This document shows positions 5,900 to 47,743 of a stretch of 64,000 nucleotides of DNA, in pieces. The notes beneath the pieces were generated by a model, which was given only the letters and a program-made list of their open reading frames with translations, ran no database searches and was not told the DNA's origin. Each line of letters begins with the position of its first letter. Within the stretch, counting starts at the first letter, position 1. The DNA is from Candidatus Gastranaerophilales bacterium (GTDB lineage: Bacteria; Cyanobacteriota; Vampirovibrionia; Gastranaerophilales; Gastranaerophilaceae). Where the stretch lies: contig CALVBI010000001.1 of assembly GCA_944325735.1 (NCBI GenBank), positions 675,784 to 739,783 on the forward strand, read 5' to 3'. A program made the position numbers and the translations under genes.

Positions 5900-6641
5900 A
5901 TGAAAAAGATTAAATTACTTGCAAAACTCGGGGGGGGGCAATTTAAGGCTCTTTACACAAGGCTTTACACTTTCAGAGGTCTTAATAACATTAGGGATAA
6001 TTGGTATAGTTGCAGCAATGACTTTACCAAGTTTGATTAATCATTATAGAGATCGGCAAATTCTTTCACAGTTCAATCATGCAGTATCATTATTTTCAAA
6101 TGCATTTACTCAAATGGCAAATGATAATGGTGGACAATTAACTAATTTATTTGGACCTTGGAATGATTTTCGTCATTTAGGTCAAGATTTTTATGCTCAA
6201 TATTTTAAATTGTTAAAAATGTGTATCCCATATGGTTCGTATAAAGATTGTGTTCCATATAAAATTTATGCCCTAGATAAGACAACTGAGGCTCCTGAAG
6301 TTTGCGGGACATATCATCATGTTGGAATTTTAGAGAATGGTATGATATTTTGTTTAGGTATGCCAAATCGTCGAGGTGATGGATGGGAAGATAGATTTAC
6401 TTTATCAGTAGACTTGAATGGGGCCCAAAGACCTAATACTTTAGGGTATGATGTGTTTATGTTTTATATAAGTAATACAGGTACACTTAGGAATGTTAAG
6501 GATTGGGGTGCCAGTAGTTGTGATATAAATTTAAAAGGTTCTGGACGTAATGGCTTTAGATGTTCAGAATGGATCCAAAAATACCAAAATGTAGATTATT
6601 TACATCATTCTTATCCAAATTCTTCTAGTATTTGGAGATAG
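5900..6641 (+). CDS. Prepilin A: type IV pilin-like protein with poly-G tract (out of frame as read)
   Basis: Prepilin-type protein with class III signal G^FTLSEVLITLG (Glu at +5), hydrophobic alpha1 and a Cys-containing globular domain. The start is the ATG at 5900, which has an AAAGGAG Shine-Dalgarno and its own promoter. Ten codons later a run of 9 G (5930-5938) begins. The ATG frame then gives a 46-codon product ending in TAA; the prepilin frame (from about 5919) is reached only with 8 or 11 G. Read with 8 G the leader is about 18 residues ending QG^FTLSEV, normal for a prepilin. A TTG at 5919 is in the prepilin frame but has no ribosome site. Interpreted as a phase-variable gene in the OFF state, or an assembly error in the tract. 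Confidence 0.8.
5930..5938 (+). repeat. Poly-G tract, 9 G, in prepilin A leader
   Basis: Homopolymer of nine G preceded by C and followed by CA, within the leader codons. Similar runs occur in frame-critical positions of three other prepilin genes in the window. In DNA this AT-rich such runs are not expected by chance. Confidence 0.95.
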
Positions 6642-6657
6642 TTATTTATATTCAAAG

Positions 6658-6692
6658 AGGCTTTCATAAAATTATGAAAGCCTTTCAATTTT
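6658..6692 (+). terminator. Rho-independent terminator of prepilin A
   Basis: Perfect 10-bp stem AGGCTTTCAT / ATGAAAGCCT with a six-base loop, followed by a T-rich stretch. It sits between convergent genes. Confidence 0.8.
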
Positions 6693-6715
6693 TCGATTTT
6701 TAGAAAATATTTCTT

Positions 6716-7213
6716 CTATAATCCTAAAGCATATTTATTGCTTAAGGAAATCATATCCATTGCGTTAAAAATATTTTGTTGTGTATTTTGAACAGAGTCT
6801 ACTCTATCAGAAAGACTTGCCAATTGAGCTTGATATCCTTGAGCAGCGGATATTTTAGATTGATCTCCAGAATTTAGCATAACCTGAATTTCTGCAGAAA
6901 TATTATCTATAATATCATCTAAACTGTCATTAGATGAAACGCTTACTCCAACTGCAGATGCAAGTGTTTTTGCTTCTGATAAAAGTTCTTGTTCTGATGA
7001 ATTACCTCCTCCTTGTTGTTGTCCTGAATTATTTTGATGTTTTGTAGCTTCAGCTTGAGCTATTAAACTTTGTGCTTGAGCTTCTGAGGTTACAGTTGTT
7101 GGGTCAATACCTAATGCTTCCAGTTTCAATTTGGTCGATGAACTGAGTTCGTCGCATTTATAGGTTGACATCGATGCAGCTTGTGCACTACTGATTGAAC
7201 TGATAGATGACAT
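6716..7213 (-). CDS. Unrecognised Ser/Gln-rich small protein
   Basis: 165 aa protein that I do not recognise. The first 25 residues are Ser/Ala-rich; a Gln/Asn/Gly-rich linker follows at about 60-75, then predicted amphipathic helices. No membrane segment or Sec signal. A single Cys near residue 20. The ATG at 7213 is preferred because AAAGGA lies seven bases before it; a GTG two codons upstream is possible. The Ser-rich, signal-less N terminus resembles in style the starts of the proteins at 19892 and 41975. It converges on prepilin A, with a shared hairpin between them. Confidence 0.6.
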   Translation of the reverse strand: MSSISSISSAQAASMSTYKCDELSSSTKLKLEALGIDPTTVTSEAQAQSLIAQAEATKHQNNSGQQQGGGNSSEQELLSEAKTLASAVGVSVSSNDSLDDIIDNISAEIQVMLNSGDQSKISAAQGYQAQLASLSDRVDSVQNTQQNIFNAMDMISLSNKYALGL

Positions 7214-7425
7214 ACCCACATCCTTTCAATATTCTTACTTTCTACTTTTTGTTTAATGACTTTTTTCTTAAAGTCAAATTTTTGACAAAATTATTGACGG
7301 ATATTTTGACTGTATCTTTACAAATTAAGCTTATAATTTTACATTTCTTAAATTTAATTTCTCCGAATATTTGAGAAAGTAGTCAAAGCTGTATGTTTGT
7401 GTTATTATGTCAATGGAGTTATATT

Positions 7426-8169
7426 ATGAAAAAGTTATTTATATTGTGTTCGATATTATTACTTATGTCTTCTAGTGCTTATGCTGCTGGAAAATATGTC
7501 AAGATTGTTCCTGAATTTTTGCAGCCAGCTCAGACGACAAGTTATGAGAAAGTTAATGAAACTCTTGCTGTTATTTTTAGCAAGATTAGACCGGTTATTA
7601 ATACAGAAAAGTATCCAAAATATTACCATGATTTTACTTTGGTAAAAGATGACGGTACTCAAAATAAAGCATATCATTACGTAAAAAATGGTAATGCTGA
7701 ATTAATTTATAATATTGATACTAATGAATTAAAATATGTTTCTTTCAGACGTCCTGAACTTATGAAATGCAGAATTTTATATGATTATCCATCAGGAAAT
7801 TTGCATGCAGTACAAGTTTTTGTTTCGGATAAAGAATCTTATGTATTTACTTCTGATGGTAAATATATTGATTACACTCCTTATGTAAAAGAAGTAAAAG
7901 AAAAAGTTGTAAAAAATTGGAAAGTGCCACCACGAAAACAAATTGATATTCTTGCAAAAGGTCAAAAAGATTTGTTGGTACAAATGGCTTTAACTCTTAA
8001 TAAAGACGGTTCAGTGAAAAAATGCAAGATTTTAAAATCATCAAAAATAAAAGCTCTTGATGATAATGCCGGTGCTGCAATTAAGGCTGCTGCTCCATTT
8101 AAGCCGTTCCCAAAATACTTCTTTAATGATGAAATTGTAATTATTTTGAATTTTAATTTTAGTTTATAG
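7426..8169 (+). CDS. Periplasmic protein with TonB-like C-terminal domain
   Basis: 247 aa exported protein. A Sec signal peptide (MKKLFILCSILLLMSSSAYA) precedes an unknown middle region; residues from about 155 to the end resemble the TonB C-terminal fold (a Lys-rich helix, a KNWKVPP segment, then VQMALTLNKDGSVKKC and an AAPFKPFP segment). Unlike true TonB it has a cleavable signal and no long Pro-rich spanner. The start at 7426 is set by GGAG upstream. The last 11 bases overlap the convergent zinc-ribbon TonB gene, so the two TonB-like genes sit tail to tail. Confidence 0.7.
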   Translation: MKKLFILCSILLLMSSSAYAAGKYVKIVPEFLQPAQTTSYEKVNETLAVIFSKIRPVINTEKYPKYYHDFTLVKDDGTQNKAYHYVKNGNAELIYNIDTNELKYVSFRRPELMKCRILYDYPSGNLHAVQVFVSDKESYVFTSDGKYIDYTPYVKEVKEKVVKNWKVPPRKQIDILAKGQKDLLVQMALTLNKDGSVKKCKILKSSKIKALDDNAGAAIKAAAPFKPFPKYFFNDEIVIILNFNFSL

Positions 8170-9040
8170 TAATTTCATAATTACCATTGTTAATTTTAAA
8201 GTTCATTCTAATAGTTTCCCCATTATATTCATCAGGTGGTGGGGTGAATCTTGGTACACTCATCATCATATAATAGACAGTGTCATTAAGCCCCTTGTTA
8301 GATGATTCTTTGGTGAATTTTCGATTTATCAATTTACCGGTTTTATCTACTGAAAATTGAATAGAACATTCACCTGCTCCTTGAATACTTCCTACTGCAA
8401 ATTTTGAAAATAATGCTGCTCGTAAAAGATTTTTATATCTTAGCATTTCTGGACTATTGGGGTTATATGCAGGCTTTTGTGGCTCTTTATGAATTTGTGG
8501 TTGAGGTGTAATTTTTTGTTTTTCTATTTGTATTGGCTGTTGCGTAATCTCTTGTTTAGCTTTTTTATTTATATTTGTTGGTTGTATTATTTTATTAATT
8601 TTTTTAGATTTATTTTGAGTATTTTCTGTTATGCGCCTGGCATAGTCAACAGGCGTTGACGTTAACGGGATTGGTTTTTGTGTGTTGTTAACTTCCGACT
8701 GTTGCCCTTGAGTTCGCGGTTGATATATTGGAGTGTCATCCCAAATTTTATCGATGTTTGGAATTGTTTTGTTAATATTTGTCTTTGTTTTTGTTTGAGT
8801 TGCTTTTTGTTTTTTTGCAGGAGTATTACCAATAGGGATTGACCAAATTATAATTGACAAAATTATACATAGTGCAAAAAATATTCTTGATACAAGTTCT
8901 GATTTTTGCTCAAGTGTAAGTGATGTATTTTCTTTTTTTGCTGGATTTTTATCTTCGATATAATCGAATGTATTATTTCCGCAATCACAGTATTCTACTT
9001 TTTCTTTGTATTCAGTTTTGCATTCTCTACATCTATACAT
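8159..9040 (-). CDS. Zinc-ribbon, single-TM, TonB-C-like protein
   Basis: 293 aa. Domains in order: an N-terminal zinc ribbon (residues 2-24, Cys pairs in YRCRECKTEY and YCDCGN), one membrane helix at about 50-70, a long Gln/Lys/Thr/Pro-rich periplasmic linker (about 75-190), and a TonB-like C-terminal domain (about 200-293, with CSIQFSVDKTGKL and SVPRFTPPP). A cytoplasmic zinc ribbon on a TonB-like protein is unusual. AGGA lies upstream of the ATG. Last gene of a minus-strand run that begins with the 13390 gene. May connect the inner membrane to an outer-membrane partner; this is inference from the TonB-like end and the spanner-like linker. Confidence 0.65.
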   Translation of the reverse strand: MYRCRECKTEYKEKVEYCDCGNNTFDYIEDKNPAKKENTSLTLEQKSELVSRIFFALCIILSIIIWSIPIGNTPAKKQKATQTKTKTNINKTIPNIDKIWDDTPIYQPRTQGQQSEVNNTQKPIPLTSTPVDYARRITENTQNKSKKINKIIQPTNINKKAKQEITQQPIQIEKQKITPQPQIHKEPQKPAYNPNSPEMLRYKNLLRAALFSKFAVGSIQGAGECSIQFSVDKTGKLINRKFTKESSNKGLNDTVYYMMMSVPRFTPPPDEYNGETIRMNFKINNGNYEITIN

Positions 9041-9047
9041 AACAAAA

Positions 9048-9227
9048 TTATCCTATCATAAATAAACTCAATTTATAAATACCGAAAAATATTAATGCAA
9101 CTATCATCATTATAATTATAATTGCAGTTTGTCTTATAATATTAAACTCTTTTTTAGCTTGAATATATTTAAAGATAAATGGTACTTCTATTAAAAAGCA
9201 AAGTAATATTAAAATAATCTTAAGCAT
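9048..9227 (-). CDS. Small two-TM membrane protein, 59 aa
   Basis: 59-codon gene, nearly all hydrophobic: helix one at about residues 3-22, a short charged loop (QAKKEFNIIR), helix two at about 34-51. The ATG is immediately adjacent to the stop of the 46-aa gene upstream (TAA then ATG) and has AAAGGAGC in front of it, inside that upstream gene. This tight coupling and the strong ribosome site support a real gene. Function unknown; likely an accessory subunit of the neighbouring TonB/VWA membrane cluster. Confidence 0.7.
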   Translation of the reverse strand: MLKIILILLCFLIEVPFIFKYIQAKKEFNIIRQTAIIIIMMIVALIFFGIYKLSLFMIG

Positions 9228-9368
9228 TTATTTGCTCCTTTTGAATATAATATTTTCAAGCATAATTGTTTTGTGCATTTTAGGTTTTATACTTGTAGTA
9301 ATCGCTGTTGTTACTGCAAGGATTATTAATATAATAATTGTAATTATTGTAATTTTAATCACATTCAT
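9228..9368 (-). CDS. Small single-TM membrane protein, 46 aa
   Basis: 46-codon gene with an Ile/Thr-rich membrane helix at about residues 4-26 and a basic C-terminal tail. Its ATG overlaps the stop codon of the TonB-C-like gene upstream by one base (TAATG), and its own stop abuts the next ATG, so three genes are translationally coupled. No homology recognised. Support is from coupling and the membrane-helix composition, not family membership. Confidence 0.6.
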   Translation of the reverse strand: MNVIKITIITIIILIILAVTTAITTSIKPKMHKTIMLENIIFKRSK

Positions 9369-10198
9369 TAGTATGTTATCCTTTCAAAATCAGAGAAATT
9401 GTTAGGTGTAGAATATCTTTCTTCTAGTGCTATAAAGAAATAACCTTGTACGACTGTTGATTTTCTTTGAGTCCCTTTTGGAAAATTTAGAATAGGCTGT
9501 TTTTGTAATTTTGAGATTGCTGTTTTTACATTATTTCTTGCAACATCCATATAATTAGGATTTGAACAGTTAACTTTTATATTGGAAACATTCCCGAATT
9601 TATCTACAACAAAGTTGAAAGTAAACATTGTGCCTAGTGGAGCATATTCAATATTTGAATTTCTCATTATTTGATTTTGGACATTACTTCTCCATTTGTT
9701 CCAAGCAATAATTTCTTCTTGTTCAGTCATGTAAGGGTTATTGAAATTACTGTTTTTAGGATATGTATTTGTTTGTTTAGGTTGATTTTCTTGTATATTG
9801 TATTCTTTTTCAACTTCATTTAAAAGTTGTTGAAGAAGTTCTATTTGTGATAAATCTTCTTCTGGGATTGTTTTATCAATTTCTTTCTTAGGTTTTGTTG
9901 GATTTATATTTATTGTTTCAATTTGTTTTAATTCTGGTTGTTGAACAGGGTCTTTTATTATTTGCTCAATTGGTTGTTGAGTATTTATTTCAGTTTGTTT
10001 AGGTGTTGTTTGAGTCGTTTGTGTATTTGTAGTTGTTCTTATTGGAATATTTTTCGTTGAGATGGTGTCGCTAATTCTTGTCAGCTTAAAGTTTTCATCT
10101 TCAATAATCAGTGGATGATGCATTTCTGGATGAAATTTAAGCGTTAATATTGTTGCTACAACAAATGAAATTATTACAAATACTTTTAAAAAATCCAT
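9368..10198 (-). CDS. Single-TM TonB-C-like protein
   Basis: 276 aa. N-terminal membrane anchor (about residues 4-21), then a Thr/Gln/Pro/Glu-rich linker with repeated TQTT- and QQP-like words (about 50-140) and a C-terminal TonB-like domain (about 165-265: NKWRSNVQNQI, FNFVVDKFGNVSNIKV, AISKLQKQPILNFP). This is the order of TonB: anchor, periplasmic spanner, C-terminal domain. ExbB/ExbD are not recognisable nearby, although the 537-aa polytopic protein just upstream could play an energising or scaffold part (speculation). Stop overlaps the next start. Confidence 0.7.
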   Translation of the reverse strand: MDFLKVFVIISFVVATILTLKFHPEMHHPLIIEDENFKLTRISDTISTKNIPIRTTTNTQTTQTTPKQTEINTQQPIEQIIKDPVQQPELKQIETININPTKPKKEIDKTIPEEDLSQIELLQQLLNEVEKEYNIQENQPKQTNTYPKNSNFNNPYMTEQEEIIAWNKWRSNVQNQIMRNSNIEYAPLGTMFTFNFVVDKFGNVSNIKVNCSNPNYMDVARNNVKTAISKLQKQPILNFPKGTQRKSTVVQGYFFIALEERYSTPNNFSDFERITY

Positions 10199-10200
10199 AA

Positions 10201-11814
10201 TTAATCTTTATCAACTTTTGCCAATAATTCGTCACAAGCGTAGATATCAAATTTCGTTTGGCTTAACATAAGTGTCTCTGCAATTAATAGAGCAGTTGGA
10301 ACAAGAGCTGCAACTAAACTTAAAAACATTCCTTGCATATCTCCACCTATTTCAGTCATAAAATATGATACGTTCATTGCAAATTCTATGAATATAATCG
10401 CACAAGCAATTGTAAGAGATCTTGTTTTTTCTGAATTTAATTTTCGTACTCCTTCAAGTCCGTATATTGTAACTCCATGGTGCTGGTAATCAGAAAAACC
10501 GTCTTGTTTGATTACCTGTGAGCCTTGGATTTTTTTAGTACAGAAAAATGCATTTACAAAAGAGAAAAATGCAAAAATAATTAAAAATGTTGCGAGTGTC
10601 AAAAATACAGGGCTTATTCTTAAGCCTGAAATTCTGACCCAACCTGCAGCTTCAGGAAAACACATTGCAAGAGTATTTGATACACCATAAGCCAAAAATG
10701 GTGCTGTCAAAATGCCTACAACAGTTTCTCCTACTGATTTTAGTTGAAGATTAAACATTTTATCTTTGATATATTGCAGTTTAGAATTACTTAAACTGTT
10801 AATATATCTTTCAATCCATTGTCTATATGATTTTATGACACTTTCAAAATCTTCTCTGTATTCGTATTTATCTAATGTCATAGTCCATTCTACACCGTTG
10901 CATTTGAAATAGCCGCAGCTTATTGCAAGAACTGCCATTATACCAGAGAAAAAGAATGAAATAAAAATCGCAAATGTCATAAAATCATTTAAATTCATGT
11001 AATAAATAAGGTTTACGACATAAATTCCAAGCACAAATATTAATGAGAAAATCAGCATAAAACTTTGACCTAATTTTGCTGATTTGGACATTTCTTTTTG
11101 AATATTGCTTTGCAGATATAGATATATCCCTTGTTTTAAAAGCAAGCATATTCCATAGATTAAAATTGTGTATACGCCCCAAACTTTTATGTTAGTCGGC
11201 ATATGTAAAAAGTTTGCACTTTCTTTAATTTCAAGTCCCATCAGGTAATTTGATACTCCAAATGCACATACCATAGAACTTAAAAACATTGCTATATGTA
11301 AGAAAATACTTGTTTTAGAATTTGTGGATAATTTTTGTTTTAAATCATTAATATGAAAAGCTACTTGTTTGATAATTGCAACACGAGCATCTTCCAAGTC
11401 TTCTTTTTGTTTTTCAAGTTTTACTTTAGTGACAGCATTAACATCTTTGCCGTACAATCCTTTTATATCTTCTTCTGTTAAGTCTTCTTTCCCGATTGAA
11501 GTTATTGTTTTAGTATTATTTACAGGAGCTTCAGCTATAATTTTAATGCCTAAAAATTCATTTGATTCTGCAAACATAATTTTGCAGATGTTACTCGTTT
11601 CAACTTTTTTTATTGGTTGGCCTTTGAATAGGACTTTGTCACTTTTAAATGTGTTAATAATAACGCATTTATTTTCAGATACTTTGTATTCTAATGTTAG
11701 TAAAACGTCATATCCAGTATTTAAAATAATGTCGCAATTTGGGTTTGTTCCGACATTTATTACATCTTTGTTAAATACTTTTTCCCCTTGTGAAGTTGAT
11801 ATTACTATAGCCAT
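10201..11814 (-). CDS. Polytopic membrane protein with FHA-like N-terminal domain
   Basis: 537 aa, not assigned to a known family. Residues 1-95 look like a degenerate FHA/beta-sandwich domain (INVGTNPNCDIIL near 20-32 is the FHA-style segment). A charged stretch (about 120-165) precedes eight likely membrane helices in two groups: four at about 168-310 and four at about 365-525, separated by a soluble region of about 60 residues. The repeat of four suggests an internal duplication (inference). Sits two bases upstream of the TonB-C-like gene and just downstream of the VWA gene. VWA plus FHA-like plus membrane subunits recalls phosphothreonine-linked secretion or stress modules, but no kinase or ATPase is here. 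Confidence 0.6.
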   Translation of the reverse strand: MAIVISTSQGEKVFNKDVINVGTNPNCDIILNTGYDVLLTLEYKVSENKCVIINTFKSDKVLFKGQPIKKVETSNICKIMFAESNEFLGIKIIAEAPVNNTKTITSIGKEDLTEEDIKGLYGKDVNAVTKVKLEKQKEDLEDARVAIIKQVAFHINDLKQKLSTNSKTSIFLHIAMFLSSMVCAFGVSNYLMGLEIKESANFLHMPTNIKVWGVYTILIYGICLLLKQGIYLYLQSNIQKEMSKSAKLGQSFMLIFSLIFVLGIYVVNLIYYMNLNDFMTFAIFISFFFSGIMAVLAISCGYFKCNGVEWTMTLDKYEYREDFESVIKSYRQWIERYINSLSNSKLQYIKDKMFNLQLKSVGETVVGILTAPFLAYGVSNTLAMCFPEAAGWVRISGLRISPVFLTLATFLIIFAFFSFVNAFFCTKKIQGSQVIKQDGFSDYQHHGVTIYGLEGVRKLNSEKTRSLTIACAIIFIEFAMNVSYFMTEIGGDMQGMFLSLVAALVPTALLIAETLMLSQTKFDIYACDELLAKVDKD

Positions 11815-11828
11815 TAATTATCCTCTTT

Positions 11829-12503
11829 TTATCTTCCTAATGCGTGTAGAAATCTTCTTATTGATTTATCAATATTTTGTTTTGGAGCTACGATCAAGTG
11901 ATTTTCGCCTAAAACAGGTGTAAGCTTTTCTTTTGCTAAATCGAGTTTAGCAGGATGTGCATCTAAAAACATCATTGAGATATCAGGTGCATATTTTTTT
12001 ACGTTTTGAACATTTTTAGGTAAAATATCCCAGTTAATTTGTTTTTCAATAGCTCCTTCATTTTCAAGATCCCCAATTACAACTACTGCAGGTACATAGC
12101 CATTTTTTTTCATTGTAAGAGCGTGAGAAAAAGCTTTTTTTAGTCCAACACCATATGCAGTGCCATAATCTTTTTCATCATATTTTGTGAAAGCATCCAT
12201 TGATTTTGTGATAGTGCTTCCATTCATTGGGCTTCCTTCATAAATAAGGTATGCATCTTCAGAAACTCGTAAAATTTTAATTTGGTCTTCTGGATCTAAA
12301 AGGTTACAAATTTGACGTAAAGTTTTTTTCTGTTCAGGTAAATATTTTTGATTAGATGCAGAGGAATCAACAACAAATATAACTGCTGCAGGATGAAAAT
12401 CATCGACTTTAATCTGTTTTAGTCCTGTCCAGATAAATTTTAAAGCAACTGATAGTACCAGTATTAATAATCCTAATGTAACCAATCTTTTATTTAATTT
12501 CAT
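11829..12503 (-). CDS. Membrane-anchored von Willebrand factor A domain protein
   Basis: 224 aa. One N-terminal membrane helix (about 7-24) followed by a VWA domain. The metal site is visible: DSSAS (DxSxS), the Thr of GTAYG and the Asp of VVIGDLENEG. VWA domains bind protein partners through a divalent metal. The ATG at 12503 is preferred; a TTG four codons upstream has no better ribosome site. Lies between the signal-peptide protein at 12560 and the FHA-like gene in a minus-strand run of seven genes. Role in the complex unknown. Confidence 0.8.
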   Translation of the reverse strand: MKLNKRLVTLGLLILVLSVALKFIWTGLKQIKVDDFHPAAVIFVVDSSASNQKYLPEQKKTLRQICNLLDPEDQIKILRVSEDAYLIYEGSPMNGSTITKSMDAFTKYDEKDYGTAYGVGLKKAFSHALTMKKNGYVPAVVVIGDLENEGAIEKQINWDILPKNVQNVKKYAPDISMMFLDAHPAKLDLAKEKLTPVLGENHLIVAPKQNIDKSIRRFLHALGR

Positions 12504-12559
12504 ATTATTATCCAATTATAAAAACTATTTGCTAAGAATAATATATCATAATTTCAGGC

Positions 12560-28578: not shown

Positions 28579-29459
28579 ATGAAAAGATTTAAAAATTTCG
28601 GGGGGGGGGCAATTTAAGGCTTGCACCACAAGGCTTTAGTGGATGTCATTCTGAGGGTGCATACCCGAAAGAATCCAGCCAATTATTAAAAGGAAAAGCT
28701 GGATTGCTTCGACAAAAGTCTCGCAATGACAGATTCGGATTTACATTAGCAGAGGTATTGATAACATTAGGAATTATCGGTGTTGTTGCTGCAATGACGA
28801 TGCCCACCTTAATTCAAAATTATCAAAAGGAAGTTACTGTTACATCGTTAAAAAAGATGTATTCTACGTTGACACAGGCTGCTCAAATGTATCAGGCACA
28901 AAATGGTATTACATATGAAGAATTTGATACATCATTGGATGGTAAAAGTTTTATGGCTAAATATTTTGCTCCATATTTGCACGTTATAAAGGAATGCAAT
29001 GGTTTTCTAGATTGTTATGAAGATTACCCTTTGGCAATAGATAGGAATAAGCAGTATAAATTTATAAATTATATTGTAGTATTGGCAGACGGTTCATATT
29101 TAGGTGTTTTGGCAATTCCATCTGGGGTATTATTTTTCTTTGATATAAATGGAGCAAAAGGCCCAAATTATTCAGGTCGCGACATATTTAGTTTTTATTT
29201 GATTAATAAAAGTACAATAGTTGGAAATGAGGGATGTGCTTCTACTATTGAAACTTTAGAATCAGGTCTTTATCCTGGTGGGTATTCTGGTTGTTATGTG
29301 CCATTCACAAAATATCCTAGAGAAGAACTTTTAGGTACGAGTGTACATAGAGCATGTAATAGGAATGCAGCTATGCTGACTAGTGGGTCTCCATATGATG
29401 CTTGTGCTGCTGTAATAATGCAAGATGGGTGGAAAATTGCTAAGGATTATCCTTGGTAA
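28579..29459 (+). CDS. Prepilin B: poly-G prepilin with palindromic repeat inserted in the leader (out of frame as read)
   Basis: Prepilin with F-G^FTLAEVLITLG (Glu +5), hydrophobic alpha1 and a Cys-rich globular domain. ATG at 28579 has AAAGGA and a good promoter. A run of 10 G (28600-28609) follows seven codons later; as read the ATG frame stops after 12 codons (GGAI then TAA). With 8 or 11 G the frame is open all the way to the prepilin core. Compared with prepilin A, 105 bp (35 codons) are inserted after the first QGF, lengthening the leader to about 53 residues; most of the insert is an imperfect palindrome. A start at the internal ATG-less codon near 28704 would drop the conserved leader and has no ribosome site. 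Confidence 0.78.
28600..28609 (+). repeat. Poly-G tract, 10 G, in prepilin B leader
   Basis: Ten consecutive G preceded by C and followed by CA. The next 12 bases (AATTTAAGGCTT-like) match prepilin A closely, so the tract and its flank are homologous between the two genes. Confidence 0.95.
28644..28731. repeat. Imperfect palindromic element inserted in prepilin B
   Basis: 88 bp with inverted ends TGTCATT...AATGACA and an inner inverted pair AATCCAGC...GCTGGATT around an AT-rich centre. Each arm is about 35 bases. The element is translated in the prepilin frame (CHSEG... to ...SRND). It resembles palindromic repeats of the TGTCATTCTGAG / GAATCCAGC type that I know from many bacterial genomes, and the way Rickettsia palindromic elements insert in frame into genes. 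No second copy seen in this window. Confidence 0.85.
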
Positions 29460-29462: not shown

Positions 29463-31247
29463 TTAGAAATTTCTTTGGAAAAATCCTGCGATTTCTTTAT
29501 GCGGGAAGAATTTTACAATTGGACGACCATGTGGACAGGTGTATGGCATTTTTGTCGTACGCCATTTTTTGATAATTTCCTGCATTTGCCAAGTTGAAAG
29601 TTTTTGACCGGCTTTTACTGATGCTTTGCAAGAGGTTGTGATTAGAATTTTTTCTTCCAATCTGTCTATATTTCCGTCTATATTTTCTAGAATGTCGGCT
29701 AAAATTTCTTTAGGATTTACTTTTGCAATCATTTGAGGAACTTTGCGGAAAATAAGTTCATTATCTTTCAAAAATTCGATTCCGTAGCCGAATTTTTCAA
29801 ATTTATCAATATTTTCTTTTATAAGTTCAGCTTCCGAACTTGATACAGGTACAACATCTGATACAAAAAGCATTTGAGATACAATATTTTTTTCTGACAT
29901 TAATTTTTCATAAATGTATCTTTCTTCTGCTATGTGTTGGTCAACTATTTCAAGTCCGTCTTCTTTTTCTACAAGAATATATGTGTTTTTATATTGACCT
30001 ACAATATTTTCTTCAGGTTCAGCTTCTTTTTCAACAGGGATAAAGAATTGTTTTTGTTCTGTTTGTTCAACTTGAGTTTCTTTTAATTCTTCGGTTTCTT
30101 GCTCAATTAATTTATCAGATACATAGATTGTATCGTCTTGTTTATCAAAGAAAATATCTCCAGATTGTTCCATTTTGGGCTGAACAAAATCGATAATATT
30201 GTTTTGTTGGAAACTTTCATTTGGAGTATATTGTTGCGTATTAATTGTGTTTCTTTCAACATAATTTGCAAGTCCAGCTTGAATTGAAGTGTAGATGAAA
30301 TTGAATATTTGGTTTGTATTTTTGTATCTTACTTCTTTTTTTGTCGGGTGGACATTCACATCAACATCTGATGGTGGGATTTCTAAATTCAATACTACAA
30401 AAGGGTATTTGCCGTTTGCAATAAGACTTTTATAAGCTGTATCTATTGCTTTTTGGAAAATAGGACATTTAACTGTTCTTGAATTTATGTATATGTGATA
30501 ACTTTTTTTGCTTGAACGAGTGTAATCAGGAGTGCTGACATACCCTGATATTTTTAGGCCTGCAAGGTTATCTGTTTTTAAGACTTCTTTTAAATTCGCT
30601 ATTACATCTGCAGAATATACTTCTTTTATTGTTTGTAAAAGGTTATTTTGCCCTGATGTTTTGAGCATTGTTTTTCCATTCTTTTTAAGTTCAAAAGAAC
30701 ATTCAGGGTGTGCAAGAGCTATTGCTTGAACGAGTTCTTGAATATATGAAAATTCTGTATTTGGGCTTTTTAAGAATTTTAAACGTGCAGGAAGATTGTA
30801 AAAAAGGTCTTTTATATCCATAATTGTACCTACTGCACAGCCAGTCTCAACTTGTTTTACTTCAGAATTCTCACATTTAACTTTTGTACCTGTATCAAAA
30901 TCAGCAGTTCTTGTAGTGCAAGTTAATTTTGAAATAGAAATAATACTAGATAGTGCTTCCCCTCGAAATCCGAGAGTATGAATATTGAACAAATCTTCAT
31001 CTGATGCAATTTTGCTTGTTGCATGTTTTGAGAACGCAAGCATAATATCATCAGGGTGAATTCCGCAGCCGTTATCTGCAACCCTTATGTCGCGGCAATC
31101 ATTATTGATTTCAATGCTTATTTTAGATGAACCTGCATCGACAGAGTTTTCTACGAGCTCTTTTACAACAGATGCAGGTCTTTCAATTACTTCTCCCGCT
31201 GCAATTTGGTTTATTAAATGCTTTGATAACTGCTGAATTCTAGCCAT
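29463..31247 (-). CDS. mutL: DNA mismatch repair protein MutL
   Basis: 594 aa. GHKL ATPase N terminus: NQIAAGEVIERPASV, ELVENSVDAG, VADNGCGI, and LGFRGEALSSI. The C-terminal endonuclease motif is present as DQHIAEERYIYE (DQHA-x2-E-x4-E with Ile for Ala) and the closing CPHGRPIV motif, so this is a nicking-type MutL as in bacteria without MutH. Acidic linker at about 330-400. A mismatch-repair state matters directly for the stability of the poly-G tracts found next to it (inference). Confidence 0.95.
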   Translation of the reverse strand: MARIQQLSKHLINQIAAGEVIERPASVVKELVENSVDAGSSKISIEINNDCRDIRVADNGCGIHPDDIMLAFSKHATSKIASDEDLFNIHTLGFRGEALSSIISISKLTCTTRTADFDTGTKVKCENSEVKQVETGCAVGTIMDIKDLFYNLPARLKFLKSPNTEFSYIQELVQAIALAHPECSFELKKNGKTMLKTSGQNNLLQTIKEVYSADVIANLKEVLKTDNLAGLKISGYVSTPDYTRSSKKSYHIYINSRTVKCPIFQKAIDTAYKSLIANGKYPFVVLNLEIPPSDVDVNVHPTKKEVRYKNTNQIFNFIYTSIQAGLANYVERNTINTQQYTPNESFQQNNIIDFVQPKMEQSGDIFFDKQDDTIYVSDKLIEQETEELKETQVEQTEQKQFFIPVEKEAEPEENIVGQYKNTYILVEKEDGLEIVDQHIAEERYIYEKLMSEKNIVSQMLFVSDVVPVSSSEAELIKENIDKFEKFGYGIEFLKDNELIFRKVPQMIAKVNPKEILADILENIDGNIDRLEEKILITTSCKASVKAGQKLSTWQMQEIIKKWRTTKMPYTCPHGRPIVKFFPHKEIAGFFQRNF

Positions 31248-36387: not shown

Positions 36388-37151
36388 ATGAAAAATTTGT
36401 TTAAATCAAAATGTCGGGGGGGGGGCATTTAGCCGCTTTTGTTAATGGTTTTACCCTTGCCGAAGTTTTAGTAACTTTAGGAATTATTGGAGTGGTATCG
36501 GCCATGACCATTCCTACCTTAATGCAAAATCATCAGAGAAAAGTTTATGTTACCCAGCTTCATAAGGTTTATAATGTGGTTCAGCAGGCTTTATTACAAT
36601 ACCGGACTGACAGAAATGCGATTGACATAAAGGAAGCCGGATTGACTTCCAAGGCTAGCATGAGTGAGTTTTTTCATAAGTATTTCAAGGTAATTCAGGA
36701 TTGTGACAAGGGCGTTGCAGATCCATGTTTTGCTGATGATTATAAAAATATAAACGGCAACTCTGTAACTGATATTAACGGAAATGATTGGCATGGCGGG
36801 GCTTGTGCTGTTATCGCGGATGGCAGTGCCATTTGTCTGGATAGTCCTGTTTTTACTGGTGCATCTTTTGAGGACGGCAGAACAGTAACGGCCGGAAACG
36901 TTTTTGTTGACGTAAACGGAAAACAGGGGCCGAATATTGTCGGACGTGATGCTTTTATTTTGGCTATATTTTCTGACGGAGTTTTGGATACTGTTCATGC
37001 GGATGCTATTTGCAGAACTCAGGGTGAATGTAACGGCGGATCCATTGAGGATACCAGACTTATCGGCAACGCTTGTGAAGATTCTGTGTCAACCGGTGAT
37101 CATGTTTGTTTCGGTAAAATTTTGAATGATAACTGGGAAATGACTTATTAA
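36388..37151 (+). CDS. Prepilin C: poly-G prepilin with higher GC than neighbours (out of frame as read)
   Basis: Prepilin with NG^FTLAEVLVTLG, Glu +5, hydrophobic alpha1, several Cys and a C terminus CFGKILNDNWEMTY shared with prepilin D. ATG 36388 has AAGGAG and its own promoter. A run of 10 G (36416-36425) follows codon 9; the ATG frame stops after 14 codons, and the prepilin frame is joined only at 8 or 11 G. An ATG at 36411, just before the tract, is in the prepilin frame as read but lacks a ribosome site. GC-ending codons are frequent (one 60-base line at 36841 is 29/60 G+C), unlike its AT-rich paralogue D, suggesting a different recent origin. Confidence 0.8.
36416..36425 (+). repeat. 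Poly-G tract, 10 G, in prepilin C leader
   Basis: Ten G preceded by C and followed by CA, in the leader region of the prepilin gene. Confidence 0.95.
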
Positions 37152-40603: not shown

Positions 40604-40649
40604 AGAAACGGTGCAAGTGTAAAGAAATATTAATATCGTATATACTATT

Positions 40650-40678: not shown

Positions 40679-40723
40679 AGGCTTATTAGGGAATTAATGA
40701 ATAATTTAGGTAGCAAAAAAAAT

Positions 40724-40754: not shown

Positions 40755-40781
40755 TGTTCTAAAGTAAATGGAGTATAGACT

Positions 40782-41876: not shown

Positions 41877-41974
41877 TATTTAATGTAAACATATGTAACA
41901 TTTTATAAACATGTTGAAATAGCCCATTAGGGTATGTTTTTACATGTATAGTATATAAAAATCAGAGAGTAGCA

Positions 41975-44818
41975 ATGAACGTTAATTCAATAAATGTTAA
42001 TAACAAAGTCTCAAGTGTTGGAAGTCAAACTACTAGCACTAATACTTCTTCATTGAATTCCATAATGGTTAAAAATCAGGATTTCGATAAGTTATTAAAG
42101 AAATTGAATATTTCACAAGATGAATTAATGGTTTTAATTAATAAACATCCTGATTTCCTAAACTTACAAGCTGATAAACAAACTGAATTAGTTAATCAAT
42201 TAAAAGCAGAAGTTAAACAAACTGCTGAACAAAAAGTAGAAAATTCAAATAATGAACCAGAAACTGCTGAAGTAGCTTCTGATTCAGAAGATCCTTTTGG
42301 AGCTTTTAATAAAGCAGAATTTAATAAATTATCAACTAAGGAAAAGATAAATGCTTGTATTACAGAGTTTGTAAAAAGCCAATATATTTATGGTACTAAA
42401 AATCATGATGGTGGTTATATTTCTCAACCACATTCAGAAGAACAATGGAATGCATTAACTCCAGAACAAAAACAACAATTAATTGAAAAATTTAAAACAG
42501 GTATAAATAATAGTGACAAATTTGAAAGTTTAAAAGCTTTAATCAATTTATCTACAAGTGAAAATATAGAAAATGCTTCTGTAATTGATAGTGCTGCTGA
42601 TGTTGTAATGAATGGAATTCAATCAGCTAGCAGAGTTGGTATTTCTTATGTAGAATTTATGCATCAAGATGACGCTACTCGTTATAATGCAATTGATGAA
42701 TATTTAGCAGAAGCAGAAATGCTAGATCCAAATTCGTTAAATGAAAATGATAAAAAATATATTTCTCATTGGAAATTAATTTCTTCTCAGGTTGCAGATA
42801 TTGTAGCAAAAGAAAAAGGGCTTGAAGATTTAGAATTATGTCCTTCAGATGCAAGACAATATATTAAATATTATAATTTAAATGAAGAACAATTATTATA
42901 TGATGCGTTAAAAGCTAAACAAGATAAAGGATTACAGTTAACTCAAGAGGAAGAAAATAAGTTAGCTGATTTAAGTCGTTATGTAAATACTCCAGCAGGT
43001 CAAAGAGAAATTAAAAAATCAAAAGCTGCAAACCTAGAAAAATTACAAGCTGAATATGATTCAATAAAAGCTAAAAAAGAAAATGGCGAAAATTTAACAT
43101 CAGAAGAATTAGGGACCTTAAATATTTTAGAGGCAAAATTAAATCCTACTGATGAAAAAGCAAAAAAAGAATTAGAAGAATTAAAAGCGTTTGCTAAAGC
43201 GATGCCTAAACCTGAAACAGATTTTGAAAAGGCTGTTGTTAGTGATTTTGAAACATTTACTTCTGAAATAAAAGAACACATCAAAGGTTCTGATATGGAA
43301 GCCGTTGCAGCTAAAGCATTTATTGATAAAAAATGTAAAGATATGAATCCAGAGCAGCGTGCTGAATATATTAAAACTGCTATTAAATTTTACAATGGTT
43401 CTGCTTCTTCAAAATTATTTGCAATTTATTCAAAACAATATCCAGAATTATTAGATGATACATCTTTAGTTGGCAAAGGTGCTCTTGCTACAAAAGAATT
43501 AGACGCAGAGCAATATAAAAAATTAGCTAAAGCTACAAAAGAAGCTTCAAAATCAAATAATGAGTTTGAAAAAGATGAAGCATTGGCAGCTGTAGAAACA
43601 AGCGGTATTATTTTAACATCAAAAAGTTGTTCAGGTGCAGAACATGATGATAAAAAAGTTATTTATTCTTCTGATATTCCTGATATTGCTGCTGGTAATG
43701 ATGATGCAAAATATCAAAAATTAGTTTTTGATGTTGCTACAACAATTACTGATGAAGCAAAACAAAAAACAGCTGTTATTGAATCGCAAACTCATAAAAA
43801 TGCAAAAAAAGAATTCCAAGTATATGCTGCCAATAATTGTTATAAATTAAAAGGCGAAAACCAAATTACTTCTTTAAAGATTGCAACTAAATTTAAAGAA
43901 GCAACAGAGGCTGTTGCAGAAAATGATATTATTGCAAAATTAGATAAAGGAAATCAAACAGAAGCTTTTTCTATTGTTCATAATAGAATTGAACAACAAT
44001 TTGAAAAAGAGGATGCTATTAAATATTCAAATGCATTGGCTGACCAAATTAAAAATTGTCATAAAGATAATCAATTAGATATGCACAAAAATATTATGCA
44101 ATCTAAATATTCAGAAGTTCAAGAATATGCAGCAGGAAATATTAAAGACTATGATCCTACAGTTCAATCTCAAGCATTAGATGTTGTATACACATCTGGG
44201 AATGAAAAAGCTATTGAAACAGCTGTTACAAGTCTTGAAAATGCTCCTTCATATTTGCAAGAAGCAGAGCTTCCAAGAATTCTTGGAGAAACTGCTTTAA
44301 GAAATGGACAAGAGTCATTAAATATTTTAACAAATGATGCTGATTCTAATGTTAATTTAAAATCAAAAATTGCAAGTGGTGCACCTTTAACATCAAGTGA
44401 ATATAATAATCTTTCTTCTGCCGAGAAAAAAGAATATTTTACAAATTATTTCAAAAAATTACCATTAGAACAAAAAATTAAATTGTTATCATCAATTCCT
44501 AATGGTGCTCAAAAGAAAACTATTTATGTAATGATTGCAAGAACTGATTCTAATTTATTTAATGCAATTGTAAAAGATAAAGATAGAGCAGATGCATTAT
44601 TATCTATGGGCTTACCAAATGATGTAAACAACAAAATTGCTAATGTCGTTAAATTTTTAGCAGTGTCTGATATCGGATATCAAAATATTGCTAAAAAACA
44701 CGATATTGATTATAAAAATCAAGACAAACCAAGTAATATTTCATATAATACAAATCCTTATGGATTTGATTCAAAAGAATTATTCAGAAAAGATAAAAAT
44801 GGTAACTTAGTATTTTAA
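41975..44818 (+). CDS. Unrecognised 947-aa helical, Lys/Glu-rich protein
   Basis: 947 aa, almost wholly predicted helical and highly charged. Ser/Thr/Asn-rich signal-less N terminus (about 1-30); coiled-coil like regions at about 330-400 (KLQAEYDSIKAKKENGENLT); long stretches with helical-repeat character (about 560-800). No membrane segment. An AGAGAG site precedes the ATG. Low in aromatic residues in the middle. Likely a lineage-specific scaffold or surface protein; function not inferred. Confidence 0.6.
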   Translation: MNVNSINVNNKVSSVGSQTTSTNTSSLNSIMVKNQDFDKLLKKLNISQDELMVLINKHPDFLNLQADKQTELVNQLKAEVKQTAEQKVENSNNEPETAEVASDSEDPFGAFNKAEFNKLSTKEKINACITEFVKSQYIYGTKNHDGGYISQPHSEEQWNALTPEQKQQLIEKFKTGINNSDKFESLKALINLSTSENIENASVIDSAADVVMNGIQSASRVGISYVEFMHQDDATRYNAIDEYLAEAEMLDPNSLNENDKKYISHWKLISSQVADIVAKEKGLEDLELCPSDARQYIKYYNLNEEQLLYDALKAKQDKGLQLTQEEENKLADLSRYVNTPAGQREIKKSKAANLEKLQAEYDSIKAKKENGENLTSEELGTLNILEAKLNPTDEKAKKELEELKAFAKAMPKPETDFEKAVVSDFETFTSEIKEHIKGSDMEAVAAKAFIDKKCKDMNPEQRAEYIKTAIKFYNGSASSKLFAIYSKQYPELLDDTSLVGKGALATKELDAEQYKKLAKATKEASKSNNEFEKDEALAAVETSGIILTSKSCSGAEHDDKKVIYSSDIPDIAAGNDDAKYQKLVFDVATTITDEAKQKTAVIESQTHKNAKKEFQVYAANNCYKLKGENQITSLKIATKFKEATEAVAENDIIAKLDKGNQTEAFSIVHNRIEQQFEKEDAIKYSNALADQIKNCHKDNQLDMHKNIMQSKYSEVQEYAAGNIKDYDPTVQSQALDVVYTSGNEKAIETAVTSLENAPSYLQEAELPRILGETALRNGQESLNILTNDADSNVNLKSKIASGAPLTSSEYNNLSSAEKKEYFTNYFKKLPLEQKIKLLSSIPNGAQKKTIYVMIARTDSNLFNAIVKDKDRADALLSMGLPNDVNNKIANVVKFLAVSDIGYQNIAKKHDIDYKNQDKPSNISYNTNPYGFDSKELFRKDKNGNLVF

Positions 44819-44843
44819 GGTACGAAATTTGTAGTGGTTAAGA

Positions 44844-44880
44844 AACGAGTCTCTTTGTAAAAAGAGACTCGTTATTTGTT
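44844..44880 (+). terminator. Terminator of the 947-aa gene
   Basis: AACGAGTCTCTTT / AAAGAGACTCGTT perfect 13-bp stem, GTAA loop, then a T-rich stretch. Confidence 0.85.
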
Positions 44881-44960
44881 GATTTTTTATATTGTTTATA
44901 TTTTAATATTTGTACAGCGTTTAAAAAGCGCGAGTTCAATAGAAAGAAGACAATTATACA

Positions 44961-45839
44961 TTGCCTGAAAATAAAAAAGATATTAAATTAGCCAAATATG
45001 CAGGTTTTTGTTACGGTGTAAAAAGAGCCGTTGAAACTGTTAAAAAATTAAAAAATGAAAATCCTGATAAAAAAGTTTTTGTATTAGGGGAACTTATCCA
45101 CAATACTCAAGTTATTCATGAGCTTGAAAGTTTGGGAATTAAGACTTTGAATGAAATTCCTGAAAAAGGTGAGGGGATTTGTGTAATCAGAAGCCATGGA
45201 GAAAGTCCTCAAGTTATTGAAAAGATTAAACAAGCAGGATTTGAACCTGTTGATTTGACTTGTCCTGATGTTAAAAAAGTGCAACAAAAAGCTGTAGAAC
45301 TTGCAAAAGATGGATATTTTGTAGTAATAGTTGGGAAATCTGAACACCCTGAGGTTATTGCAATAAGAGCAAATGCTGAACTGTGGAGTGATAATGTTAT
45401 AGTAGCTGCATCAGTAGAGCAATTAAAAGAGTTTGAAGCTAGAATTAAAAGTCATAAAAAAGTTGGGGTTGTTGTCCAGACAACTCAAAGACTTGTAACT
45501 TTAAATTCTATAGTTGAATATTTGACATCAATAGCCAAAGAAATTCATATTGCAAATACTATTTGTCAAAGTACATCTATGCGTCAAAAAGAAGCTAGAG
45601 AATTGGCAGATGAAAGTGATTTAGTTATAGTTGTAGGCTCTAAAAAAAGTGCGAATACAACTCACTTAGCTGAAATTTTAAAAGATATCACTAAAACTAT
45701 TCATATTGAAAAAGATGATGAACTTGATAATTATAAAGATTTGATTATAAGTGCAAATCATATTTCAGTTACTGCAGGAGCATCTACTCCGCAGAACATA
45801 ATAGAAAATGTAATTGAAAAACTTAGAAAGGAAATATAA
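44961..45839 (+). CDS. ispH: 4-hydroxy-3-methylbut-2-enyl diphosphate reductase
   Basis: 292 aa IspH/LytB, last enzyme of the MEP isoprenoid pathway, making IPP and DMAPP with an iron-sulfur cluster. The three cluster Cys are visible: AGFCYGVKRA, DLTCPDVKKV and ANTICQST; also GELIHNTQVI, RSHGE and the TAGASTP end. TTG start at 44961; a GAAAGAAG site lies about 12 bases upstream. rpsA starts five bases after the stop, a pairing seen in several bacteria where LytB and S1 are linked or even fused. Confidence 0.94.
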   Translation: MPENKKDIKLAKYAGFCYGVKRAVETVKKLKNENPDKKVFVLGELIHNTQVIHELESLGIKTLNEIPEKGEGICVIRSHGESPQVIEKIKQAGFEPVDLTCPDVKKVQQKAVELAKDGYFVVIVGKSEHPEVIAIRANAELWSDNVIVAASVEQLKEFEARIKSHKKVGVVVQTTQRLVTLNSIVEYLTSIAKEIHIANTICQSTSMRQKEARELADESDLVIVVGSKKSANTTHLAEILKDITKTIHIEKDDELDNYKDLIISANHISVTAGASTPQNIIENVIEKLRKEI

Positions 45840-45844
45840 AAAAC

Positions 45845-46921
45845 ATGACAACAACATTAGAAAAAACAAATTTAGATGAATTTGAAAGATTATTAGAAGA
45901 ATCTTTCGCTAAATCTTACTCAGTAGCTGATATCGTTGAAGGTACAGTTGTAAAAAAAGAAAGTGATGGATATTTAATCAGCGTTAAAGGTGCTAAAACT
46001 GAAGCATTTTTACCTGTTAAAGAAATCCCAGCTTCTGAAGGTATCGATAATTTAGAAATCGGTGAAGAAAAAGAATTTTATGTATTAAAAGAAGAAAATG
46101 ATGAAGAAGGAATGCTTTTATCATTGAAACGTTTAGCATTTGCTCAAGCTTGGGCTCAATTAAACGATGCAAAAGTTCAAGGCGATACAATTTTAGCTAA
46201 AGTTGTATCTATCGTTAAAGGTGGCGTATTAGTTGACGTTGCTGATTTAAAAGGATTTATCCCATCTTCTCAATTAAGAACAGGAACTCCTTTTGACGGT
46301 TTAATTGATACAAAAATTGAAGTTAAAGTTCTAGAAGCAGATCCTAAGAAAAATAAACTTATCTTATCTCAAAGACAAGCTGTTGCCGAACAACGTGATC
46401 AAGTTGTAGATAATATTTTATCAGAACTTCAAGAAGACCAAGTTGTAAAAGGTGAAGTTGTAAGAATTGCTGATTTCGGTGCTTTTGTAGATATTAATGG
46501 TATCGATGGACTTCTTCCAATTTCTGAAATTTCTTGGTCAAGAATTAAACATCCTTCAGATGTAATTTCTTTAGGTGAAACTATTGAAGTTAAAATTATC
46601 AAAATTGATAATGAATTGAAAAGAATTTCATTGTCTTTAAAAAGAATGGGCGAAGATCCATGGCAACAAATTGAAGGTCAATTTGAAGAAGGACAAGTAA
46701 TTACAGGTACAGTTAATAAAGTAACAGGATTCGGTGCATTTATTAACATTTTCCCTGGAGTAGAAGCATTATTACCAGTTTCTGAAATGGCTGAAGAAAA
46801 TGTAAATCCATTCAATACATTCAAAGTTGGTGACAGTGTAGAAGTTCTTATTAAAAAATTCACCCCACAAGAACATAGAATTGCATTGAGTATTAAAGAT
46901 ATTAATAAAGATGCTGAATAA
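45845..46921 (+). CDS. rpsA: 30S ribosomal protein S1
   Basis: 358 aa with four S1 (OB-fold) domains at about 28-100, 115-185, 200-270 and 285-355; the third and fourth have the typical VKGEVVRIADFGAFVDI and VNKVTGFGAFINI starts. Short S1 of this kind is usual in cyanobacteria and Gram-positives (four rather than six domains). Probably co-transcribed with ispH; strong hairpin follows. Confidence 0.92.
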   Translation: MTTTLEKTNLDEFERLLEESFAKSYSVADIVEGTVVKKESDGYLISVKGAKTEAFLPVKEIPASEGIDNLEIGEEKEFYVLKEENDEEGMLLSLKRLAFAQAWAQLNDAKVQGDTILAKVVSIVKGGVLVDVADLKGFIPSSQLRTGTPFDGLIDTKIEVKVLEADPKKNKLILSQRQAVAEQRDQVVDNILSELQEDQVVKGEVVRIADFGAFVDINGIDGLLPISEISWSRIKHPSDVISLGETIEVKIIKIDNELKRISLSLKRMGEDPWQQIEGQFEEGQVITGTVNKVTGFGAFINIFPGVEALLPVSEMAEENVNPFNTFKVGDSVEVLIKKFTPQEHRIALSIKDINKDAE

Positions 46922-46936
46922 TTGATATATTATAAA

Positions 46937-46970
46937 ATATGCCCGAACTTGAAAAGTTCGGGCATATTTG
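46937..46970 (+). terminator. Terminator of rpsA
   Basis: ATATGCCCGAACTT / AAGTTCGGGCATAT perfect 14-bp stem with a three-base GAA loop, followed by TTTG. Confidence 0.85.
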
Positions 46971-46977
46971 TTATAAT
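46949..46977 (+). promoter_or_regulatory. Promoter of prepilin D, overlapping the rpsA terminator
   Basis: TTGAAA (46949-46954, at the tip of the terminator hairpin), 17-bp spacer, TATAAT (46972-46977), 27 bp before the ATG. Confidence 0.62.
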
Positions 46978-47004
46978 TACTATATAAATACGAAAGGAGC
47001 GTTT

Positions 47005-47743
47005 ATGTTTGGATTGTTAAGTAATGTAAATCGGGGGGGGGGGGCATAATTTAGGCTCCTATAAGGGATTCACCCTTGCCGAAGTTTTAGTAACTTTAGG
47101 AATTATTGGTGTAGTATCTGCAATGACAGTACCTACTTTGATGCAAAATTATCAAAGAAAGTCTTATGTCGTTCAGTTGCATAAAGTTTATAATGAGTTT
47201 CAACAAGCAGCTGTCCAATTAATGACTGATAAAAATGCTATTAATTTATCTGAGGCAGGTCTTAATAGTGATGATGCTGCTGGAAATTTTGTTAAAACTT
47301 ATTTCAAGATTGTGAAAGATTGTGGTACAGATGCAGCAATGTGTTTCCCTGAAAAAGATAATTATAAGAAAATTTCTGGAGATAAAGTGACTTTTTGGTA
47401 TGGCAAACGTCATTTTGTATTAGCGAGTGGTGCATCAATTGCAACTTATTACAATGCTAGATCTGGCTTAATTATGGAAATATGGGTTGATACCAATGGT
47501 GCTAAAGGCCCTAATATTATTGGTAGAGATATGTTTGTTATGTTTTTATACAATAATGGTGTACTAGATGATTTAAATAGTCAAAATGATGCTGATGATA
47601 ATGTTACAGGATATGCTAATGTGCCTTTATCTAAGGAGTTAAGAGAAGAGAAATTTAATAGATATTGTATGGCAGGCAGTGGTGTAAATATTCATGGCTG
47701 TTTTGGAAAATTATTAAATGACAATTGGGAAATGACATATTAA
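47005..47743 (+). CDS. Prepilin D: poly-G prepilin (out of frame as read)
   Basis: Prepilin with KG^FTLAEVLVTLG, Glu +5, and the C terminus CFGKLLNDNWEMTY shared with prepilin C. ATG 47005 has AAAGGAG and its own promoter. A run of 12 G (47033-47044) begins after codon 9; the ATG frame then stops after 14 codons (TAA). With 11 (or 8, 14) G the leader reads through to HNLGSYKG^FTLAEV. In the prepilin frame a stop lies directly upstream of the tract, so no alternative start before it exists; the first downstream ATG (47123) is past the cleavage site and would give a non-functional pilin. Confidence 0.8.
47033..47044 (+). repeat. Poly-G tract, 12 G, in prepilin D leader
   Basis: Twelve G preceded by C and followed by CA; the longest of the four tracts. 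Confidence 0.95.

Follow-up and report, generated by a model that had tools for sequence, protein, structure and literature searches.

Guanine runs of near-uniform length in the leaders of 76 prepilin genes of a Gastranaerophilales bacterium: a candidate default-OFF phase-variable pilin family

Results

Prepilin genes with a guanine run between start codon and prepilin motif

The DNA analyzed here (the window) is a stretch of 64,000 nucleotides from contig CALVBI010000001.1 of a Candidatus Gastranaerophilales bacterium, in which four dispersed prepilin genes carry a long guanine run in the leader. The window has a G+C content of 30.4%, and its only G/C runs of at least seven bases are these four, a G9, two G10 and a G12 (Table 1). 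All four start 21–30 bases past the first base of an ATG bearing a Shine-Dalgarno-like word, and downstream of each lies an N_methyl prepilin motif, which scores above the cut-off of Pfam PF07963 in four of four genes. The prepilin frame is restored at a run length of 8, 11 or 14 in every one of them. In pilin gene 3, an additional ATG at 36411 shares the prepilin frame and spans the run, with no Shine-Dalgarno word visible by eye. The AlphaFold2 model of pilin 4 has a predicted local distance difference test (pLDDT) score of 84.5, and a Foldseek search matched nothing at an E value of 0.001.

The genome that contains the window (G000; 1.94 Mb in 8 contigs, 99.93% complete) has 78 G/C runs of at least eight bases, of which 73 are ten long, two are nine long, and one each is eight, eleven and twelve long. 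Prepilin leaders hold 76 of the 78, including 72 outside the window. Exactly ten bases are found in 72 of these 76 leader runs, and the other four measure 9, 9, 11 and 12. Read in the sense of the gene, the run is G in 55 genes and C in 21. Each site has an uninterrupted single run rather than the four spaced guanine blocks of a quadruplex-type element. The G-sense pilin frames are open for at least 208 residues from motif to stop in 55 of 55 genes. The genome gives 97 N_methyl matches in total, and 20 stretches examined around run-less matches, which comprise 22 prepilin genes, contain no G/C run of at least six bases. The two runs outside leaders are L006 (ten) and L008 (eight); the former (G000 C1:174647) has a short frame of its own and lies upstream of a prepilin gene with its own in-frame ATG.

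A preliminary description of the window, made from the letters alone, had reported runs of 9, 10, 10 and 12 G between a Shine-Dalgarno-equipped ATG and the prepilin motif, no other long G run, and permitted lengths of 8, 11 or 14 common to the four genes; the coordinates and PF07963 matches, the run scan and the frame computation agree with it on these three points. Its count of four genes holds for the window and falls well short of the 76 in the genome. It had also named two observations that would speak against switching. A fixed length of 8 or 11 everywhere is not what we found; as for run-less orthologues with an in-frame leader, 22 prepilin genes without the run do exist in this genome and are at most potential orthologues of the run-bearing genes.

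The prepilin frame is one base short at a run length of ten

To assign starts we used a rule that demands a Shine-Dalgarno-like word, which 73 of the 76 genes pass; two of the three failures show AAGGGG ahead of an ATG by eye. Among the 72 ten-long prepilin runs of the genome, 68 need exactly one additional base, one is in frame (L035, from a GTG start) and three lack a rule-based start. The runs of other length (9, 9, 11 and 12) are all out of frame; in the present assembly, all but one of the 73 genes with a rule-based start are OFF.

The same frame relation is found in a wider sample of 247 unique runs of at least nine bases from this genome and its relatives. Only runs preceded by C were taken, which excludes L035 among others, and identical flanks were counted once; 192 runs were scored, and the remaining 55 have no prepilin motif within 330 bases, many of them resembling leaders with long repeat inserts. 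One additional base is needed by 141 of the 145 ten-long runs with a start (68/68 in this genome, 73/77 in the others), while one of the other four is in frame and three need the loss of a base. The length upstream of the run falls into all three classes modulo 3 (75, 45 and 21 genes), each of which is compensated by the downstream phase, which indicates that the one-base offset is not a single inherited accident. Runs of eleven and nine were sampled across the genus at 30 loci each, with no prepilin assigned at 13 and 12 of them, respectively. Of 17 elevens in prepilin genes, 14 are in frame, one of these (L212) depending on a doubtful motif match; the other three comprise one without a start, one that needs the loss and one that needs the gain of a base. 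Nines need the loss of one base in 16 of 18, window pilin 1 included. Taken at 9, 10 and 11 together, the results show a target length fixed at 8/11 and an actual length of ten.

When the ten-long genes are read in the OFF frame, a stop lies no more than 15 bases beyond the run in 100 of the 101 G-sense genes and in 25 of the 40 of C sense. Stops shortly after the shift site are common at frameshift sites, and the run could be a programmed slippage site, at which the ribosome (−1) or RNA polymerase (+1 base) slips; the DNA would then remain ten long, with a low, fixed output of each pilin. Homopolymers do slip, the offset between the two frames across the run is constant in 141 of 145 genes, and plain purifying selection would account for both the constant length and the one-base offset. 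We nevertheless consider this explanation unlikely: the 20 stretches around run-less prepilins hold no G/C run of at least six bases that might be a shorter, stable slippery site, and two further observations described below, the frames of non-pilin genes and the orientation of the run, are not accounted for by it.

Ten is the prevailing run length across the genus and is in frame in non-pilin genes

We counted runs of nine, ten and eleven G flanked by C on both sides in 33 genomes of the genus, the window's genome included, where not every run was checked for a prepilin. The counts are 79 for C-G9-C, 1458 for C-G10-C and 95 for C-G11-C. The ten-long form is present in 29 of the 33 genomes and accounts for 67–97% of the runs wherever a genome has at least 20 (25 genomes). 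Three genomes of the same genus (G014, G029 and G031) have none of the three forms, and the run system may thus have been gained or lost within the genus. A looser run pattern applied to four genomes from other families of the order gave 4, 2, 0 and 0 matches, where the reversed control gave 2, 1, 0 and 0; within this small outside sample, the run system is restricted to the genus.

Thirteen runs among the relatives' loci lie in the middle of non-pilin genes, with at least 60 open codons on each side, and were scored apart (two of them, L200 and L291, look mutually related). The in-frame length is ten in 11 of the 13: six of seven tens are in frame, both nines need one more base, and three of four elevens need one less. 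By comparison, at most 4 of 145 pilin runs are in frame at ten (p = 4e-12). This contrast indicates that ten is a real default and that the pilins are wired OFF at this length. No shift is required at most of these non-pilin runs, which argues against the programmed-slippage explanation.

The non-pilin genes also bear on the possibility that run lengths are off by one or that the pilin genes are dead. Long homopolymers are error-prone, and all but one of the 73 scored genes look off. However, a systematic one-base error would break the frames of the non-pilin genes, of whose seven ten-long runs six are in frame in the same set of assemblies; this argues against a miscounted run length. The ten-long run with its flank also occurs in records whose contig names follow SPAdes- or MEGAHIT-like conventions, and the pilin frames are open. 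Artefact or decay is therefore highly improbable.

Nine proteins behind non-pilin runs, a set partly different from the 13, were scanned against Pfam. Five exceed the cut-off, namely a polysaccharide deacetylase, a TupA-like ATP-grasp protein, an OmpA protein, a PRTase-CE protein and a DUF2963/RHS protein, families that recall phase-variable gene classes in other organisms; NodZ and LysM matches are under the cut-off, and two proteins have no family. In a different species of the genus, L284 is a nine-long run within a gene of the PRTase-CE family. At two further loci of other species, L248 and L259, a G10 directly follows a stop codon and precedes an ATG by 6–9 bases. The product of L248 belongs to the OmpA family and that of L259 is similar in appearance; the G10 at these loci could act as a ribosome-binding element.

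Constant strand and conserved 3′ flank of the run

Among the 76 prepilin runs, the strand that carries G switches only twice along the contigs, compared with 29 switches of gene strand. When the G/C sense was shuffled among the genes 20,000 times, the minimum was 18 switches. Genome G020 agrees, with one within-contig strand switch among 100 of 165 places listed. Of the 10-kb samples with unambiguous GC skew, 17 of 18 from the window's genome and 14 of 18 from G020 place the G run on the G-rich strand (tallied by eye, with two intermediate samples per genome set aside), which suggests that the run lies on the leading-type, G-rich strand. The dnaA gene was rejected as an origin marker, since neither the tract strand nor the sampled skew changes at its position (C3:172.8-174.2 kb), and the relation between strand and replication consequently rests on GC skew. 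Near C-sense genes, the local skew on the G strand is approximately zero (positive at 9 of 21), which shows that gene direction confounds skew.

On the G strand, the bases after the run are C, A/G, any base and three pyrimidines, then purines and a GCT. The nearest GCT begins at an offset of 8–11 bases from the run for 111 of the 133 runs of G sense and for 50 of the 59 of C sense. On the opposite side of the run, GCT occurs within 20 bases on the same strand in 14 G-sense and 13 C-sense genes, and reading outward on the other strand in 26 and 17, respectively. The flank GCT falls in all three codon phases (50, 45 and 27 in G-sense genes; 41, 10 and 1 in C-sense genes). Transcription reaches the flank later than the run in G-sense genes and earlier, as the complement, in C-sense genes, so that the constraint appears to be on the DNA itself and not on a single RNA or peptide. 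Programmed slippage leaves both the constancy of the G strand and the single 3′ flank in the two gene orientations unexplained.

Two roles for the flank were tested and found no support. A hairpin between run and GCT was rejected, as folding of the G strand relative to shuffled flanks is slightly better in G-sense genes (−0.36, standard error 0.11) and worse in C-sense genes (+0.50, standard error 0.15). Control of run length by the flank is suggested by pooled data, in which GCT is at offset 8–11 for 143 of the 151 runs of ten and for 27 of the 41 of other length (p = 5e-6), the pooled rows differing in species; the effect is gone in genus-wide sets drawn alike (14/21 for nine, 16/21 for ten and 11/17 for eleven).

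Natural variation in related proteins

One genome per species was compared. The protein P0001, the body of which is 99% identical to window pilin 4, starts with MFGLLSNVTRGGGRLTAPNK directly followed by GFTLAEV, and its leader is in frame across the run. As judged from the protein, this most simply implies that the gene carries eleven bases where window pilin 4 carries twelve. P0058, which is 99.6% identical to the L035 product, has a leader that is interrupted and in frame. Among the best 120, 114 and 14 matches listed, 30 of 242 related protein records have a run-crossing leader of at least six residues, a proportion not usable as an ON frequency because gene callers choose the starts and only best matches are included. 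A further 48 of the 242 begin inside or after the prepilin motif, which suggests that gene callers may truncate such pilins.

The leaders after the run differ between pilin 4 and P0001 despite their near-identical bodies, and the neighbors L010 and L011 have, by eye, a common leader after the run and bodies that are not common. Together with an oriented G run and a conserved flank at pilin genes, such mosaics would be expected if run and flank were a site of recombination or gene conversion in the style of the gonococcal pilE guanine motif, which shuffles pilin sequence rather than frame. We regard this as very unlikely. A rule-based start of their own is found in 73 of the 76 genes (no search was made for run-less silent cassettes), one uninterrupted run of ten is unlike the four-block pilE motif, and the frame rule is left unexplained.

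Positions of the features and neighboring genes

The features of the four window genes are summarized in Table 1. The mutL gene adjoins window pilin 2, and mutS1 (G000 C3:272758-275454) adjoins another tract-bearing pilin gene; given one tract per 25 kb, this proximity may be chance. In-frame dispersed repeats of the type CATTCTGAGGGTG...GAATCC were seen by eye in the prepilin leaders of eight genes, namely in the window at 28617-28737 and in L012, L026, L034, L036, L047, L055 and L071. Other leader repeats encode GQAARL-like peptides in some cases and contain TACGCACGTAG in others. With several repeat types present, the cleaved leaders seem to collect repeats.

Table 1. Positions of the pilin gene features and of mutL in the window
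Feature	Position	Strand	Basis
Pilin gene 1, Shine-Dalgarno-like AAAGGAG	5887..5893	+	sequence
Pilin gene 1, ATG and leader codons before run	5900..5929	+	sequence; distance 30
Pilin gene 1, G9 run; in frame at 8 or 11, hence OFF as assembled	5930..5938	+	run scan, frame
Pilin gene 1, conserved 3′ flank, GCT at end	5939..5950	+	sequence
Prepilin frame 1 (GFTLSEV..., N_methyl)	5946..6641	+	Pfam PF07963, 24 bits
Pilin gene 2, start codon and leader codons	28579..28599	+	sequence; distance 21
Pilin gene 2, G10 run, frame short by one base	28600..28609	+	run scan, frame
Pilin gene 2, conserved 3′ flank, GCT at end	28610..28621	+	sequence
Prepilin frame 2, leader with in-frame dispersed-repeat insert (CHSEGAYPKESS...)	28617..29459	+	Pfam PF07963, 26.7 bits
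MutL (mismatch repair gene, context)	29463..31247	-	Pfam; NCBIfam TIGR00585, 525.6 bits
Pilin gene 3, start codon and leader codons	36388..36415	+	sequence; distance 28
Prepilin frame 3	36411..37151	+	Pfam PF07963, 21.7 bits
Pilin gene 3, G10 run, frame short by one base	36416..36425	+	run scan, frame
Pilin gene 3, conserved 3′ flank, GCT at end	36426..36437	+	sequence
Pilin gene 4, start codon and leader codons	47005..47032	+	sequence; distance 28
Pilin gene 4, G12 run; in frame at 11 or 14, hence OFF as assembled	47033..47044	+	run scan, frame
Pilin gene 4, conserved 3′ flank, GCT at end	47045..47057	+	sequence
Prepilin frame 4	47051..47743	+	Pfam PF07963, 25.7 bits

Discussion

The position and length of the runs, the frame relation, the open pilin frames, the in-frame elevens elsewhere in the genus, the constant strand and the conserved flank lead us to favor, with some reservation, default-OFF phase variation by slipped-strand mispairing in a family of 76 prepilin genes, in which one additional base would switch each gene ON in a minority of cells. 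The run would rest at ten, where the pilin is short by one base, and mispairing that adds one base (or removes two) would bring the pilin into frame. Run length would have to change at useful rates during growth, with ten as the mutational resting length, and selection would have favored the out-of-frame wiring for keeping the resting state OFF. Most cells would then probably not express a given pilin, which would be ON only upon a one-base change of its run, and each cell would display a few members of a large repertoire. The flank and the strand lock may act in replication to set the slippage behavior of the run.

Several points weigh against this interpretation. The run lengths come from assembly consensus, and switching itself was not observed. 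The prepilin motif pattern is loose and gives doubtful matches among relatives (for example L137, L177 and L212). MutS1 and MutL are both encoded in the genome; mismatch repair should lower slippage, and its loss was rejected as the cause. Of the 1632 counted runs, 89% share one length, which is tighter than known slippage predicts: the stationary length distribution that we computed from the C. jejuni slippage rates in Table 2 of PMC8224891 peaks at 43%. In addition, a programmed slippage site could equally well take the form of a run that stays at ten and is consistently one base short. The preliminary description had taken the four genes for contingency loci. Frame-setting runs in the leaders, the in-frame lengths of 8, 11 and 14, the open pilin frames and the in-frame elevens elsewhere are all in keeping with that view, whereas the near-uniform ten (72/76), the OFF state of 72 of 73 genes, the strand lock and the conserved flank are not typical of such loci.

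A more specific and rather doubtful proposal would link these atypical features to default-OFF phase variation. The oriented element C-G10-C-R-N-YYY-ARR-GCT might be a cis-acting, replication-coupled clamp that holds the run at ten and permits a step to eleven independently of gene direction, from which one genus would have built a lottery among dozens of pilin genes that are OFF by default. In this arrangement, GCT would lie 8–11 bases past the run on the would-be lagging-strand template, a distance of about one RNA-primer length, and the hand-off from primer to polymerase would take place at the run. That GCT is a primase start is conjecture; the preference of characterized primases is for CTG, CTA, TTA or CCC (PMC5204125).

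If default-OFF switching is correct, the family would be among the largest known phase-variable pilin sets, silent by default and in a little-known lineage. The roughly 1,600 uniform tracts in 33 genomes would then serve as natural replicates on what sets homopolymer length in cells. Whether flanking DNA and replication strand can clamp a slippage tract would become testable; for C. jejuni tracts, slippage in PCR showed no dependence on flanking sequence (PMC4965091). The genes pilA, pilB, pilC, pilT and pilD are reported in a melainabacterial genome (PMC5877343), and the passages on them mention neither a homopolymer run nor phase variation. We found no description of a pilin set with homopolymeric leaders in Gastranaerophilales in the open-access literature searched, where the papers on phase variation that came up include one on flagellins and a review on gonorrhoea.

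Comparison with known phase-variable systems

C. jejuni NCTC11168 has 29 phase-variable polyG/polyC loci, and the values given for 11 of its tracts in 90 colonies chosen with an ON length are 257 for G8, 214 for G9, 431 for G10, 77 for G11 and 9 for G12, so that the commonest length in such chosen colonies reaches 44% (PMC4965091). The two systems share G/C runs of similar length in reading frames, many loci per genome, and an ON/OFF state set by length. In contrast to the spread of lengths in C. jejuni, the runs described here are 89% ten, with conserved flanks and a constant strand, and 76 of the 78 in G000 are located in the leaders of prepilins, which a length of ten leaves OFF. More generally, the phase-variable tracts described in PMC4965091, PMC8224891 and PMC4085013 span several lengths; for N. 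meningitidis, the mean length of homopolymeric tracts is close to 9, and most loci have a length of 7 (PMC4085013).

PolyG and polyC loci occur in both the meningococcal genes and the present family. The G run of meningococcal pilC lies in the signal-peptide region and thus in the leader of a pilus gene, but the meningococcus has one or two such pilus genes compared with dozens of pilins here. Gonococcal pilE/pilS undergoes antigenic variation with an oriented guanine motif and conversion from silent copies. The present family resembles it in pilin diversity and in the oriented G motif, and differs in that the genes, with few exceptions, possess starts of their own and the run acts on the frame. 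The tightness of run length, the strand lock and the flank set this system apart from the phase-variable tracts with which it was compared.

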